Source: Urbifossiella limnaea
GTDB lineage: Bacteria; Planctomycetota; Planctomycetia; Gemmatales; Gemmataceae
Assembly: GCF_007747215.1 (NCBI RefSeq)
Contig: NZ_CP036273.1
Location: 4,076,322-4,140,321, forward strand
DNA length: 64,000 nt
Reading direction: 5' to 3'
The notes below the pieces were generated by a model. The model ran no database searches. It was not told the DNA's origin and was given only the letters and a program-made list of their open reading frames with translations. The position numbers and the translations under genes are program-made. Shown piece after piece: positions 5,029-45,983 of the stretch. Position 1 is the stretch's first letter. Each line of letters opens with the position of its first letter.

Positions 5029-6123
<1,095 letters not shown>

Positions 6124-6224: not shown

Positions 6225-7439
6225 ATGCCCAAGAAGACGCTGTCCGACCTCGGCCCGCTCGCCGGTAAGAGGGTGCTGGTGCGCGTGGACTTCAACGTCC
6301 CGCTGGACAAGAAGACCGGCGCGGTCAAGAACGACCGCCGCATCCGCGGCGCCCTGCCGACCGTGCAGGCGCTACTCGACGCCGGCGCCGCCGTGATCGC
6401 CATGAGCCACCTCGGCCGGCCCGAGAAGGCCACGCCCGAGGAGCGCGCCAACCTGACGACGGACAAGGTCGCCGCCCGCTTCGGCGAGTTGCTCGGCCGG
6501 CCGGTCAAGAAGGCGGCGAACGACGTGGTCGGTCCGGCGGTGTCGGCAGCCGCCGCGGCGCTGAAGCCGGGCGAGGTACTGCTGCTTGAGAACCTGCGGT
6601 TCGACCCGCGCGAGCAGCAGAACGACGCCGAGTTCGCGGCCGCGGTCGCGGGCCTCGCCGACGCCTACGTGAACGACGCCTTCGGCACCTGCCACAACGA
6701 CAAGGACGCCAGCATGGTCGCGGTTCCCGCCGCGATGAAGGCGGCCGGCAAGCCACGGGCCGTGGGGTTGCTCGTCGAGAAGGAACTGACCATCGTCGAC
6801 GGCCTGATGACGGCCCCGAAGACGCCGGTGCTGGCCGTCATGGGCGGGGCGAAAGTGTCCGACAAGATCGCGTTCATCAACGCCCTCCTCTCGAAGGTCG
6901 ATTCGCTCCTCATCGGCGGGAAGATGGCCTACACCTTCCTCAAGCTGAAGGGCTTCGACGTGGGCGCCACCCGCGTCGCCGAAGAGGAACTGGCGGCCGC
7001 GACGCCGCTGCTCGGCCACGTCGGCGGGAAGATCACGCTGCCCGTGGACTGCCTCGCTGCGAAATCGAGCGACCTGGGCGTCACGCAGGTCGTCGAGGTC
7101 GGCGGAGCCATCCCGGCGGATTACGAGGGTGTGGACATCGGGCCGAAGACCCTCGCCCTGTTCGCCGGCAAGATCAACCAGGCCGCGACGGTGATCTGGA
7201 ACGGCCCGGTCGGGTGGTTCGAGCAACCCGCGTTCAGCGCCGGCACCAAGGGCGTCGCGGCGGCGATGGCCGACAGCGGCGCCGTCACCGTGGTCGGCGG
7301 TGGCGAGACGGCGGAGGCGGTGGAGCAGTTCGGCTACGACAGCAAGATGACGCACGTGTCCACCGGCGGCGGGGCGTTCCTCGCTTACGTCGAGGGGCGG
7401 AAGTTCCAGTCCCTGGCCCAGATCGACGACCGCGGCTAA
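6225..7439 (+). CDS. pgk: Phosphoglycerate kinase
   Basis: Transfers the acyl phosphate of 1,3-bisphosphoglycerate to ADP, the step after GAPDH. From ATG 6225 the protein has 404 residues, the normal length. The N-terminal '[10 protein letters not shown]' and 'SHLGRP' form the basic patch that binds phosphoglycerate; 'LLLENLRF', 'NDAFG' and '[10 protein letters not shown]'-type segments follow (here '[11 protein letters not shown]'), and the C-terminal nucleotide site is 'WNGPVGWFE' and '[10 protein letters not shown]'. The frame is open far upstream through the gap region and the palindrome, but only the part from 6225 has PGK similarity. The ribosome-binding site is weak (TGGAAC), so translation may depend on the structure formed by the palindrome upstream. 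Confidence 0.97.
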
Positions 7440-7452
7440 CTCCGAGTTCTTG

Positions 7453-8283
7453 ATGTCTTCGATCCCCCAACCCGCCGACCGGAAGAAGGGCGTCCCGGAG
7501 GGGCTCTGGCTCCGCTGCCCGGGGTGCAAGGCCACGGTCTACCGCAAGGAGGTCGAGGCCCGGCTGTTCGTCTGCCCGGAGTGCGACCACCACTTCACCG
7601 TGCCGGTCCGCGACCGCATCGCCCAGCTCCTCGACACCGACAGCTTCGAGGAGTGGGACGCCGAGCTGGCGCCGTGCGACCCGCTCGGGTTCGTGGACCG
7701 CATCCCGTACGCCCAGCGGCTCGTTGAGGAGCAGGCGAAGACCGGCCAGAAGGACGCGGCGGTCTGCGGCAAGGGGTTCGTCCGCGGCCGGCCGGTCGTC
7801 CTCGGCATCACCGACTTCCACTTCATGGCCGGGAGCATGGGGAGTGTGGTCGGCGAGAAGCTGGCCCGCGCCGCCGAGCGCGCCGCCGACGCGAAACTGC
7901 CGCTCATCTTCGTCAGCGGCTCCGGCGGCGGGGCGCGGATGCAGGAGGGCATCCTGTCGCTGATGCAGATGGCCAAGGTGTCGGCCGCACTGGCCCGGTA
8001 CGATACGGCCGGCGGGCTGTACATTTCGATCCTGACGAACCCGACGATGGGGGGGGTGGCCGCGAGCTGGGCCTTGCAGGGCGACATCCACCTGGCCGAG
8101 CCCGGGGCGATGATCGGCTTCGCCGGCCGGCGGACGATCCGCAACACCGTCGGGCTGGAGTTGCCCGAGAAGTTCCAGACGAGCGAGTTCCTGCTGAAGC
8201 ACGGGTTCGTGGACCGGATCGTCCACCGCCGCGACCTGCGGACCGAGGTCGCCCGAATCATCGACTACTGCGACATCCAGTAA
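7453..8283 (+). CDS. accD: Acetyl-CoA carboxylase carboxyltransferase subunit beta
   Basis: Beta half of the carboxyltransferase that moves CO2 from carboxybiotin to acetyl-CoA, making malonyl-CoA for fatty acid synthesis. The 276 residues begin with the AccD zinc ribbon, C22-x2-C25-x15-C41-x2-C44. The crotonase-type carboxyltransferase fold follows, with '[12 protein letters not shown]' and '[14 protein letters not shown]' forming the CoA-binding and oxyanion regions, and '[11 protein letters not shown]'. The start is ATG 7453; a TTG codon just before is in frame and less likely. It sits 13 nt after pgk and 15 nt before a protein kinase, suggesting one transcript with the lower-glycolysis genes. 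The alpha subunit (accA) is not in this window. Confidence 0.96.
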
Positions 8284-8298
8284 CGCCGTGAGGCGCCC

Positions 8299-9198
8299 GT
8301 GGGCTTCTTCGATTTTCTGACCGGCAAGGGCAAGGACAGGGGCGGGGTCGGTGGCTCGCCGCGCAAGGTGGCGAACATCGCCAAGCGCTTCGAGCTGAGC
8401 GGCAAGACCGGCCAGGGGAGCATGTCCAAGGTCTACCGGGCCTACGACCGCGAGATCGGCCGCAACGTCTGCCTCAAGGTCCTCGACAAGGTCAAGACGA
8501 AGGAGTTCGAGGCCCGCTTCCCCGGCCTGAAGAAGCCGTCCGAGGGCGAGATCTGCATGGCCCTGCGGCACGAGAACATCGTGCGCACCTACGAGCACGG
8601 GCTGACGACGAACGGCGAGCCGTACATCGTCATGGAGTGGGTGGACGGTTACGGCCTCAGCTACCTGGTCGAGACGCGGAACGCCCAGCTTAAGGGAAAC
8701 CGGATCAACTACCTGTCGCAGCTGAGCGACGCCGTCCAGTACATTCACGACTCCAAGTACCTGCACCGCGACCTGTGCGCCCGCAACATCATGGTCAACA
8801 CCGAGGGCGTGCTCAAGCTCATCGACTTCGGGCTCGCGATCCCGTACACGCCGCAGTTCTGCGCCCCCGGCAACCGGACCGGCACCAAGGAAATCATGGC
8901 CCCGGAGCTGCTTGCGCGGCGGACCACCGACCACCGCGTGGACATGTTCGCTCTCGGCGTCACGGCCTACGAAATGTTCACGTTCAGCCTGCCGTGGGAG
9001 CGGTCGATGGACTCGAACGAGTACTCCCGGCGGGTGATGAACACGCCGCCGAAGAACCCGAAGGACGTGAACAAGGACCTGGACGACGAGACGGCCGCCG
9101 TGTTGTTGAAGGGGATCGCCAAGGTGCCGACGGACCGGTTCGGCTCGGCGAAGGCGTTCAAGGAAGCCCTGGAACGCCTCCCGCGGCAGGACTGGTAG
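8299..9198 (+). CDS. Atypical protein kinase with tyrosine-kinase-style catalytic loop
   Basis: A 299-residue cytoplasmic protein kinase with no membrane segment. Visible parts: glycine loop GQGSMSKV (38-45), beta-3 Lys60 ('CLKVLD'), helix-C Glu84, catalytic loop H156-R-D-L-C-A-R-N163, DFG at 176-178 and APE at 201-203. All residues needed for phosphotransfer appear present, but the usual bacterial Ser/Thr loop HRDLKPxN is replaced by HRDLCARN, lacking the Lys two residues after Asp158. An Arg at residue 162, in the AxRN arrangement, is typical of eukaryotic tyrosine kinases. The P+1 region (GTKEIMAPE) looks Ser/Thr-like. The GTG start follows GAGGCG. It is likely cotranscribed with accD, 15 nt upstream. 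Substrate unknown; dual or tyrosine specificity is inference. Confidence 0.85.
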   Translation: MGFFDFLTGKGKDRGGVGGSPRKVANIAKRFELSGKTGQGSMSKVYRAYDREIGRNVCLKVLDKVKTKEFEARFPGLKKPSEGEICMALRHENIVRTYEHGLTTNGEPYIVMEWVDGYGLSYLVETRNAQLKGNRINYLSQLSDAVQYIHDSKYLHRDLCARNIMVNTEGVLKLIDFGLAIPYTPQFCAPGNRTGTKEIMAPELLARRTTDHRVDMFALGVTAYEMFTFSLPWERSMDSNEYSRRVMNTPPKNPKDVNKDLDDETAAVLLKGIAKVPTDRFGSAKAFKEALERLPRQDW

Positions 9199-44765: not shown

Positions 44766-45983
44766 ATGAAGTCTGCTCGCGCCCGCGAATTTCAACTCCC
44801 GGTCACCACCCGCTACGAGTTCGAAAAGTTGCTGGGGAGCGGGGGTATGGGGGTGGTCTACCAGGCCCTCGACCGCCGGACGGGTGAGCGGGTCGCCATC
44901 AAGGTCCTCCGGTTCCAGCCGTCGGCGAACCCGACCCTGTTCAAGCGGATCGAACGGGAGTTCCGCTCGGCCTCGAACCTCGAGCACCCGAACATCGTCC
45001 GGGCGCTGGCGTTCGAGACGGACGAGCGGAGTTGTTTCCTCGTGTACGAACTGATCAACGGCGGTAGCCTCGGAGACCGGCTCGACAACCACGGGCGGAT
45101 CCCCGAGGTGGACGCCGTGAAGTTGATTACCCAGGTTGCCCAGGCGCTCCACTACGCCCACTCGTTCGGCGTAATTCACCGCGACGTGAAGCCGGATAAC
45201 GTGCTGATCCTGCCGAGCGGGCGGGTCAAGTTGACGGACTTCGGGCTGGCCAAGGAGTTGGACAACGACGAGGAACTGACCCGGCAGGCGAGCGGGCTGG
45301 GGACGCCGAACTACATGGCCCCGGAACAGTTCGTGGACGCCCGGTCGGCCGGTGTCCAGTGCGACGTGTACTCCCTCGCGGCCACCCTCTTCCACCTGCT
45401 CACCGGCAGAATCCCGTTCGACGGCAAAACGGACCTGGCGATTCTGACGATGAAGGAGCGTGGGATCGGAACGTCCCCCCGGGCGCTGCTACCCGGAATC
45501 AGTGGGCGGGTCGATGCCGCCATCCGGGCTGCCCTCAACCCGGACGCGACCAAGCGGCCCGCGACGGTCCTCGAGTTCTTCAAGCTACTCACCGCCAGAA
45601 CCCGGCTCGGGCGACCGGGCGCCGTCCCGAACCTCACCCAGTCTGCCGCTCCCGACGACCGTCGGGTGTCGTGCCGGCACACCCTCAAGGTCGGGGCGTG
45701 TGGGGTGGTCGATACGACTCTCCACGGTGGGACCGAGGAAGTCTGGCCGCTCGTCGTCCGCGACGTTTCCGGGACGGGGATCGGCGTGACGTTGGCCCGC
45801 CGGTTTGAAGTCGGGACGGAACTCGGGATCGAACTCCACGCCGGCCGCGAGCCCGGCTTGCGCCGGTTCGCGGCGCGGGTCGTGCGCGTCCAGTCGGACC
45901 GTGGCGGGTACTGGGTCCACGGGTGCGTCTTCGACCCGCCGATCCACGAGGACGATGTCGCCGGCTTGCTCGAGTTCGCCTGA
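44766..45983 (+). CDS. Serine/threonine protein kinase fused to a PilZ domain
   Basis: A 405-residue cytoplasmic protein with two domains. The kinase (about 16-280) is canonical: GSGGMGVV loop (25-31), Lys46, catalytic loop 'HRDVKPDN' (138-145), 'DFG' (158-160) and 'GTPNYMAPE' (179-187). The C-terminal PilZ domain (about 296-400) has both c-di-GMP motifs, R300-x3-R304 and D333-x-S-x-x-G338. No transmembrane segment separates them, unlike most PknB-type kinases. It should sense c-di-GMP and change kinase output accordingly, which is inference from the domains. The ATG at 44766 has GGGAG 7 nt upstream; the longer frame from 44670 lacks a site. Single-gene unit with its own promoter, ending beside a hairpin shared with pyrG. 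Confidence 0.93.
   Translation: MKSARAREFQLPVTTRYEFEKLLGSGGMGVVYQALDRRTGERVAIKVLRFQPSANPTLFKRIEREFRSASNLEHPNIVRALAFETDERSCFLVYELINGGSLGDRLDNHGRIPEVDAVKLITQVAQALHYAHSFGVIHRDVKPDNVLILPSGRVKLTDFGLAKELDNDEELTRQASGLGTPNYMAPEQFVDARSAGVQCDVYSLAATLFHLLTGRIPFDGKTDLAILTMKERGIGTSPRALLPGISGRVDAAIRAALNPDATKRPATVLEFFKLLTARTRLGRPGAVPNLTQSAAPDDRRVSCRHTLKVGACGVVDTTLHGGTEEVWPLVVRDVSGTGIGVTLARRFEVGTELGIELHAGREPGLRRFAARVVRVQSDRGGYWVHGCVFDPPIHEDDVAGLLEFA

Follow-up and report, generated by a model that had tools for sequence, protein, structure and literature searches.

The kinase gene at 8299..9198 of the window, a stretch of 64,000 nucleotides from Urbifossiella limnaea, raises two questions. Its catalytic loop, HRDLCARN, lacks the lysine that Ser/Thr kinases carry two positions after HRD (HRD+2) and recalls the HRDLAARN of receptor-type tyrosine kinases (PTKs), which leaves its specificity to be explained. 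It also stands behind three metabolic genes on the same strand, so that its role in the cell is in question as well.

5071..6123, + strand: gap, glyceraldehyde-3-phosphate dehydrogenase (Pfam Gp_dh_N and Gp_dh_C)
6225..7439, + strand: pgk, phosphoglycerate kinase, 404 aa (homology of the neighbours and gene order)
7453..8283, + strand: accD, acetyl-CoA carboxylase carboxyltransferase beta (Pfam Carboxyl_trans and Zn_ribbon_ACC)
8299..9198, + strand: kinase gene, GTG start, 299 aa, kinase domain with no extra domain predicted

The open reading frame that an earlier note on this DNA had claimed is present, and the Pfam search found a complete kinase domain in it: Pkinase matches residues 32-288 at 154.2 bits against a curated cut-off of 31.7, and PK_Tyr_Ser-Thr matches at 114 bits. 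The end of accD lies 15 bp before the kinase start; for accD itself the first ATG is at 7453, and a TTG one codon earlier (7450) is also possible. Very long antisense open reading frames, such as 7285-8934 on the − strand, overlap accD and the kinase gene and look like shadow frames of high-GC DNA.

Orthologs were collected by BLAST over 59 related genomes, 50 of which contained a clear ortholog, giving 51 sequences (one genome has two). These scored 185 to 685 bits, and the next kinases reached at most 124 bits; no ortholog was found at an ortholog-level BLAST score in 9 of the 59 genomes. The features of the window kinase are given below with their conservation among the 51 members.

8299..8328, + strand: N-terminal hydrophobic/basic peptide MGFFDFLTGK (column of residue 8 is Phe in 46/51)
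8407..8433, + strand: glycine-rich loop TGQGSMSKV, residues 37-45 (G40, M42 and S43 invariant, n = 51)
8476..8478, + strand: K60, the beta-3 (VAIK) lysine (51/51)
8542..8544, + strand: E82, presumed alpha-C glutamate (51/51; model helix 82-88)
8746..8748, + strand: H150, at the site of the alpha-E "STK-histidine" (51/51; criterion from excerpts of PMC4771162)
8764..8787, + strand: catalytic loop HRDLCARN, residues 156-163 (translation of the reading frame and alignment of 51)
8776..8778, + strand: C160, which replaces the HRD+2 Lys (Cys 44, Asn 4, Ser 2, Gly 1; n = 51)
8782..8784, + strand: R162 at HRD+4, proposed stand-in for the lost Lys (Arg 48, Lys 3; n = 51)
8824..8835, + strand: DFG and the DFG+1 Leu, residues 176-179 (D, G and Leu 179 in 51/51, Phe 177 in 45/51)
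8866..8907, + strand: end of the activation segment and P+1 loop, PGNRTGTKEIMAPE, residues 190-203 (alignment, n = 51)

All ATP-site residues are kept in the window kinase, as had been claimed: K60, E82, D158, N163, D176-F-G178, A201-P-E203 and D215. Across the 51 members K60, E82, D158, N163, D176, G178, P202, E203, D215 and R280 are invariant, and with them the Hanks-type marks (beta-3 Lys, alpha-C Glu, HRD Asp, Asn, DFG Asp, APE Glu and F-helix Asp). The alignment further shows G191, N192, R193, G195, P202 and E203 to be invariant in the P+1 region, where the P+1 Thr, T196, is Thr in 47 members, Ser in 2 and Cys in 2. An AlphaFold2 model of the window kinase gave a closed, complete kinase fold with a mean pLDDT of 92.5 and a pTM of 0.88. 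Comparison with the nearest relative yielded a dN of 0.078 and a dS of 0.36; the dN/dS of approximately 0.2 indicates purifying selection.

The reading of residues 156-163 as HRDLCARN, without Lys at HRD+2, proved to be a true one, and it is a local version of the HRDxCPRN motif that marks one planctomycete kinase family. Lys was found at HRD+2 in 0/51 members; HRD+3 is Pro in 48, Ala in 2 and Ser in 1, and HRD+4 is basic in all 51. A pooled set of 148 distinct proteins (136 of a Planctomycetia core and 12 outer members) showed the same, with no Lys at HRD+2 (0/148) and with Arg or Lys at HRD+4 in 147/148, the exception being a single His. Among the 136 core members HRD+2 is Cys in 129, Asn in 4, Ser in 2 and Gly in 1, HRD+3 is Pro in 128, Ala in 3, Thr in 3 and Ser in 2, and HRD+4 is Arg in 132, Lys in 3 and His in 1; the 12 outer members have Cys (11) or Ser (1), Pro (12), and Arg (7) or Lys (5) at these positions. 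The pooled set includes loci L105-L184, in which loop frequencies are biased: they are the best 80 loci of a scan that had the loop among its three patterns, with those of Zavarzinella formosa and Limnoglobus roseus among them. The 51-member set is unbiased. Four ordinary HRDxKP kinases (L195, L196, L200 and L201) were left out of the pooled counts, as was L199, which has a broken frame with 38 aa recovered. The kinase gene at this last locus (G135:C54) resembles the family but is interrupted by an in-frame TAG, and it is possibly a decayed copy. The family kinase also occurs in metagenome-assembled genome records titled Bacteroidales and Kuenenia (L116; L137, L150 and L177), and these titles look wrong. 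Because HRD+3 is mostly Pro in the family, the CARN of the window is a Pro-to-Ala variant. Exact HRDLCARN was found in 3 of the 148 distinct proteins, namely the window kinase, L055 and L112; the Ala that completes the PTK look is derived and confined to the window's close relatives. HHD replaces HRD (a non-RD form) in five core members (L050, L052, L053, L054 and L102), four of which belong to family f3 and have Asn or Gly at HRD+2.

Within its own genome the loop is an oddity. The U. limnaea genome gave 144 Pkinase matches, some of which are fragments of a single domain, and this kinase number is in line with the 98 to 140 Ser/Thr kinases given for Gemmataceae in excerpts of PMC11032199, a count across the phylum. 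Lys stands at HRD+2 in 111 of the genome's 118 HRDxxxxN pattern hits, which makes HRDLCARN odd within this kinome; among the 5 listed of the 7 non-Lys hits, only the window kinase coincides with a Pkinase match. The window encodes a second kinase at 44814-45560 on the + strand (G000:C1:4121135-4121881), with an HRDVKPDN loop, and this is the genome's best Pkinase match at 189 bits.

HRDxCPRN kinases occur throughout Planctomycetia, and outside it in further classes of Planctomycetota. Random scatter of the loop among PknB relatives, which the earlier note had named as one of its refuting cases, was rejected by a tree built without the four loop columns: 88 rows lack the Lys and have a basic HRD+4 (His in one), and 86 of them form one group with an SH-aLRT of 91; the Planctomycetia core of 75 rows has an SH-aLRT of 100. 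The loop is hence heritable, and a lysine-less loop with a basic HRD+4 is a clade mark of the planctomycete HRDxCP[RK]N family. A filter at 72% identity had removed 90 of 197 rows from this tree, and L244 was removed since no HRD was found in it. The tree was computed by a quick method and has long outgroup branches, so the family's outer limit is less sure than its core; L226 (HRDVSPKN) and L227 (HRDISPRN) have a basic HRD+4 yet fall outside the family group. The idea that the missing Lys is unique to this family was rejected, because HRDITPQN, HRDVSPQN and HRDICPNN also occur in the phylum. HRDITPQN recurs within one family of the phylum (L231, L232 and the f50 genomes). Among its listed hits, the loose pattern used to look for such loops matched mostly ordinary HRDxKP kinases.

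The best matches by sequence and by fold are of the Ser/Thr type. The top VIA-align fold match of the model was PknB of M. tuberculosis (Z 30.7, rmsd 2.8, 257 aligned residues, 30% identity), and the 50 fold matches listed are all named Ser/Thr kinases or CASK, although further matches beyond this list may include tyrosine kinases. PknB also came first in a PDB sequence search, with 102 bits versus approximately 50 bits per kinase copy for EGFR. The EGFR entry, fourth by whole-sequence E-value, was set aside as support for a PTK, because the alignment shows two kinase copies of approximately 50 bits each. Matches to the PADLOC PD-T4-6 models were likewise set aside as a sign of a defence role, these models being generic for Ser/Thr kinases.

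Excerpts of PMC4771162 describe the AAR Arg of tyrosine kinases as hydrogen-bonding the Tyr hydroxyl, and the alpha-E histidine as a feature that Ser/Thr kinases retain and tyrosine kinases have lost. The Arg of the window kinase sits where this Tyr-bonding Arg sits, which would favor a tyrosine or dual-specificity kinase whose HRD+4 Arg forms a Tyr-accepting pocket, as the earlier note proposed. The same is favored by LIMK1, which is active with the lysine-less loop HRDLNSHN, phosphorylates Ser and Tyr, and has Leu at DFG+1 (excerpts of PMC8750758), as does every one of the 51 members. Such a specificity is nevertheless unlikely. The alpha-E His is present in 51/51 members, and the P+1 Thr is a conserved Ser/Thr-kinase mark, the P+1-loop Ser/Thr that contacts the catalytic loop in excerpts of PMC6213207. 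The substrate-binding Arg and Trp of the PTK P+1 loop, R789 and W790 of EphA3 (excerpts of PMC4771162), were not found at positions 198 and 199, which are mostly N/D/E and Y/I among the 51 members (E198 and I199 in the window kinase) in a register against EphA3 that we aligned ourselves. The Pkinase score also exceeds that of PK_Tyr_Ser-Thr by the bits given above. In comparison with the AAR of PTKs, HRD+4 is basic throughout the 51 members, but HRD+2 is mostly Cys and HRD+3 mostly Pro. The description of the loop as PTK-style thus stands for the Arg at the receptor-type HRD+4 position and is unsupported for kinship or overall likeness, given the best match to PknB and the retained P+1 Thr and alpha-E His. 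Descent from tyrosine kinases was rejected because of the two retained Ser/Thr-kinase marks (alpha-E His and P+1 Thr) and the Pfam and PDB scores, and the family most likely resembles tyrosine kinases at the HRD+4 residue only, with no kinship. Since LIMK1, an accepted Ser kinase, also lacks the HRD+2 Lys, its loss is no bar to membership in the wider kinase group. The window kinase is predicted, from its sequence, to be most likely an active Hanks-type Ser/Thr kinase. A preference for Ser is suggested by the P+1 Thr together with the Leu that every member has at DFG+1, if this Leu acts as in PAK1, where a bulky DFG+1 residue goes with Ser preference (excerpts of PMC8750758).

The context of the gene was then compared among loci. 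In the first set, 31 of 41 loci have accD immediately upstream of the kinase in the same orientation. Upstream sequence reaches 900 bp or more at 131 core loci, and 99 of these show the adjacency too, as do 3 of 10 outer loci. The gap between accD and the kinase has a median of 98 bp (range −6 to 370, core loci, by alignment ends). An even draw of 392 phylum genomes gave an accD-adjacent kinase in 26 of 38 kinase-bearing Planctomycetia genomes and a non-adjacent one in 12, as sorted by eye from coordinates. By comparison, gap was found within 4.5 kb in 31/136 core loci and pgk within 3.5 kb in 22/136, with at least 3.4 kb of upstream sequence at 91 of the 136. At least two further families of the phylum show the accD linkage as well (L185, L186 and L194): at L185 pgk and accD stand beside the kinase, and the distant L194, of another class, repeats the gap-pgk-accD-kinase order of the window. 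The earlier note had taken the neighbors as a hint at control of central carbon flow. The gap-pgk-accD order is confirmed in the window, and the neighborhood is conserved, for accD far more than for gap and pgk; since the accD link is stronger than the gap and pgk links, the hint moves to fatty-acid synthesis. Several large neighborhood clusters were wrong-frame shadow frames of high-GC DNA and were ignored.

Not every accD locus of this kind has the kinase. A comparison set comprised 19 accD loci from genomes where no family member was found or where the kinase lies elsewhere (G147 being cut at a contig end). Within a few kb of accD, any kinase was found in 1 of these 19, an ordinary HRDLKPSN kinase at L210. 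Its gene (G076:C531), with a product of approximately 570 aa, immediately follows accD in the same orientation in a kinase-rich genome, and the pair is perhaps an independent pairing or chance. Both gap and pgk lie near accD with the kinase absent at L206 and L212, which implies that the gap-pgk-accD row may predate the kinase link; gap and accD without the kinase are present at L222. Conversely, the lysine-less loop is retained at the 32 of 131 core loci that lack accD adjacency, which shows that it does not depend on accD. In the first set, 6 of the 7 members with a residue other than Cys at HRD+2 are unlinked (L044, L045, L050, L052, L053 and L054) and L041 is linked, which represents few events on the tree.

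Nearly all members carry the N-terminal peptide ahead of the kinase domain, in a form like M-[N/S/G]-F-L-K-x-L-F followed by a linker. Residues 1-20 have a pLDDT of approximately 50 and are unstructured in the AlphaFold2 model. The peptide could bind the membrane or a partner protein, for example the carboxyltransferase. In some other bacteria AccD itself starts with a hydrophobic/basic peptide. Such an N-terminus was found in 2 of 89 planctomycete AccD sequences, by a rough pattern on the fetched loci.

These data suggest a mechanism in which an old planctomycete family lost the HRD+2 Lys and fixed a basic residue at HRD+4, Arg162 in the window kinase. This Arg most likely reaches the place of the lost Lys, beside the catalytic Asp158 and the gamma-phosphate, in a placement that may be likened to that of the Arg in the HRDLAARN of receptor-type tyrosine kinases. 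That the HRD+4 side chain makes the contacts to the phosphate and the catalytic Asp that the Lys once made would be the economical reading of the loop. The presence of Gln or Asn at +4 in other lysine-less loops, and the HRDLNSHN of LIMK1, imply that a basic HRD+4 is dispensable and that the Arg may serve something else. The kinase would be made together with AccD from the gap-pgk-accD-kinase row, and its putative target, either one of the acetyl-CoA carboxylase subunits or a protein associated with that enzyme, would allow entry into fatty-acid synthesis to be adjusted. Taken as a whole, a soluble, active Ser/Thr kinase of PknB fold, in which Arg162 replaces the Lys, which is made with AccD and whose substrate is acetyl-CoA carboxylase or its pathway, has in our estimate a little under an even chance of being right. 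The kinase activity, the role of Arg162, the Ser preference and, above all, the substrate are what we infer here.

Other explanations agree with parts of the same data. As the gap-pgk-accD row occurs without the kinase, the kinase could be a passenger, that is, an active Ser/Thr kinase with a substrate unrelated to AccD, whose gene travels with a stable row and whose N-terminal peptide directs it to the membrane. The unlinked core loci, the kinase-free rows at L206 and L212, the gap-accD pair at L222 and the conserved Phe of the peptide agree with this; the excess of accD links over gap and pgk links, and their repetition in at least two other families, speak against it, and we consider it somewhat unlikely. 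The absence of the catalytic Lys throughout the family, together with HHD in place of HRD in five core members, might instead point to a pseudokinase or a kinase of low activity, serving as scaffold or ATP-sensing regulator of the carboxyltransferase. This appears quite improbable in the face of the invariance of the remaining catalytic residues (the Asp of HRD and that of DFG among them), the low dN/dS, and the activity of LIMK1 without the same Lys (excerpts of PMC8750758).

The kinase might also act on a small molecule or a lipid and not on a protein. In the family, 39/51 members have a secondary Pfam match to APH, 47/51 to ABC1 and 9/51 to Kdo. Kinases of the APH, ABC1 and Kdo types also lack Lys at the HRD+2 place. 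We regard this as very improbable, since Pkinase matches 51/51 members and is the top match in the member shown, the activation segment is complete with its APE, and the best folds are protein kinases. A bolder version of the AccD-linked Ser/Thr kinase proposed above would make it a bacterial counterpart of the AMPK-ACC switch: an ancient operon kinase dedicated to acetyl-CoA carboxylase, with N-terminal docking, a re-engineered loop and, possibly, a redox-sensitive Cys near the Asp as well as specificity for Tyr or for both kinds of residue. This combination is doubtful. AMPK acts on acetyl-CoA carboxylase in the control of the first step of fatty-acid synthesis.

The family kinase has an ordinary fold, and it is the catalytic loop and the gene partner that are unusual, in a variant that is well conserved. 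Of the two, the accD context is the stronger surprise. The excerpted text of PMC11032199, which classed kinases by K-D-D sites, does not mention the HRDxCPRN loop, and the strings HRDICPRN, HRDLCPRN, HRDLCARN, HRDVCPRN and HRDXCPRN were not found in the literature searched. Nor did any paper of that literature bring together accD, acetyl-CoA carboxylase, phosphorylation, bacteria and a Ser/Thr kinase. If our reading is true, the family would be a natural case of a bacterial Ser/Thr kinase, apart from the tyrosine kinases, in which the Lys was lost and a basic residue stands two positions on. It would then offer a clean system for the role of HRD+4 and for whether this position sets the choice between Ser/Thr and Tyr. 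The kinase kept beside accD across classes makes phosphorylation control of bacterial acetyl-CoA carboxylase directly testable.

Among known systems, the PknB/Hanks-type bacterial kinases have in common with the family the fold, the GxGxMSxV loop, the P+1 Thr, the alpha-E His and the ATP-site residues. The family differs from them in the change of the HRD+2 Lys to Cys (in a few cases Asn, Ser or Gly) and in the fixed Arg or Lys at HRD+4, and also in the absence of a membrane or PASTA part and in the link to accD. LIM kinases (HRDLNSHN) are also otherwise complete kinases without the HRD+2 Lys (excerpts of PMC8750758), but they have no basic HRD+4, belong to the eukaryotic TKL group and have another substrate and other domains. 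Receptor-type PTKs (HRDLAARN) likewise lack this Lys and have Arg at HRD+4, and the window copy shares even the Ala at +3; in contrast to them, the family has Pro at HRD+3 in most of the core, the P+1 Thr and the alpha-E His, and is without the PTK P+1 Trp and Arg. The HRDITPQN, HRDVSPQN and HRDICPNN loops of the phylum have similarly lost the HRD+2 Lys and kept the HRD+3 Pro, but they have Gln or Asn at HRD+4 and occupy tree positions separate from the HRDxCP[RK]N family. Finally, AMPK would be analogous to the role proposed here, as a kinase that controls the first step of fatty-acid synthesis, although its homology to the family is limited to the kinase fold and the bacterial role is a predicted one.
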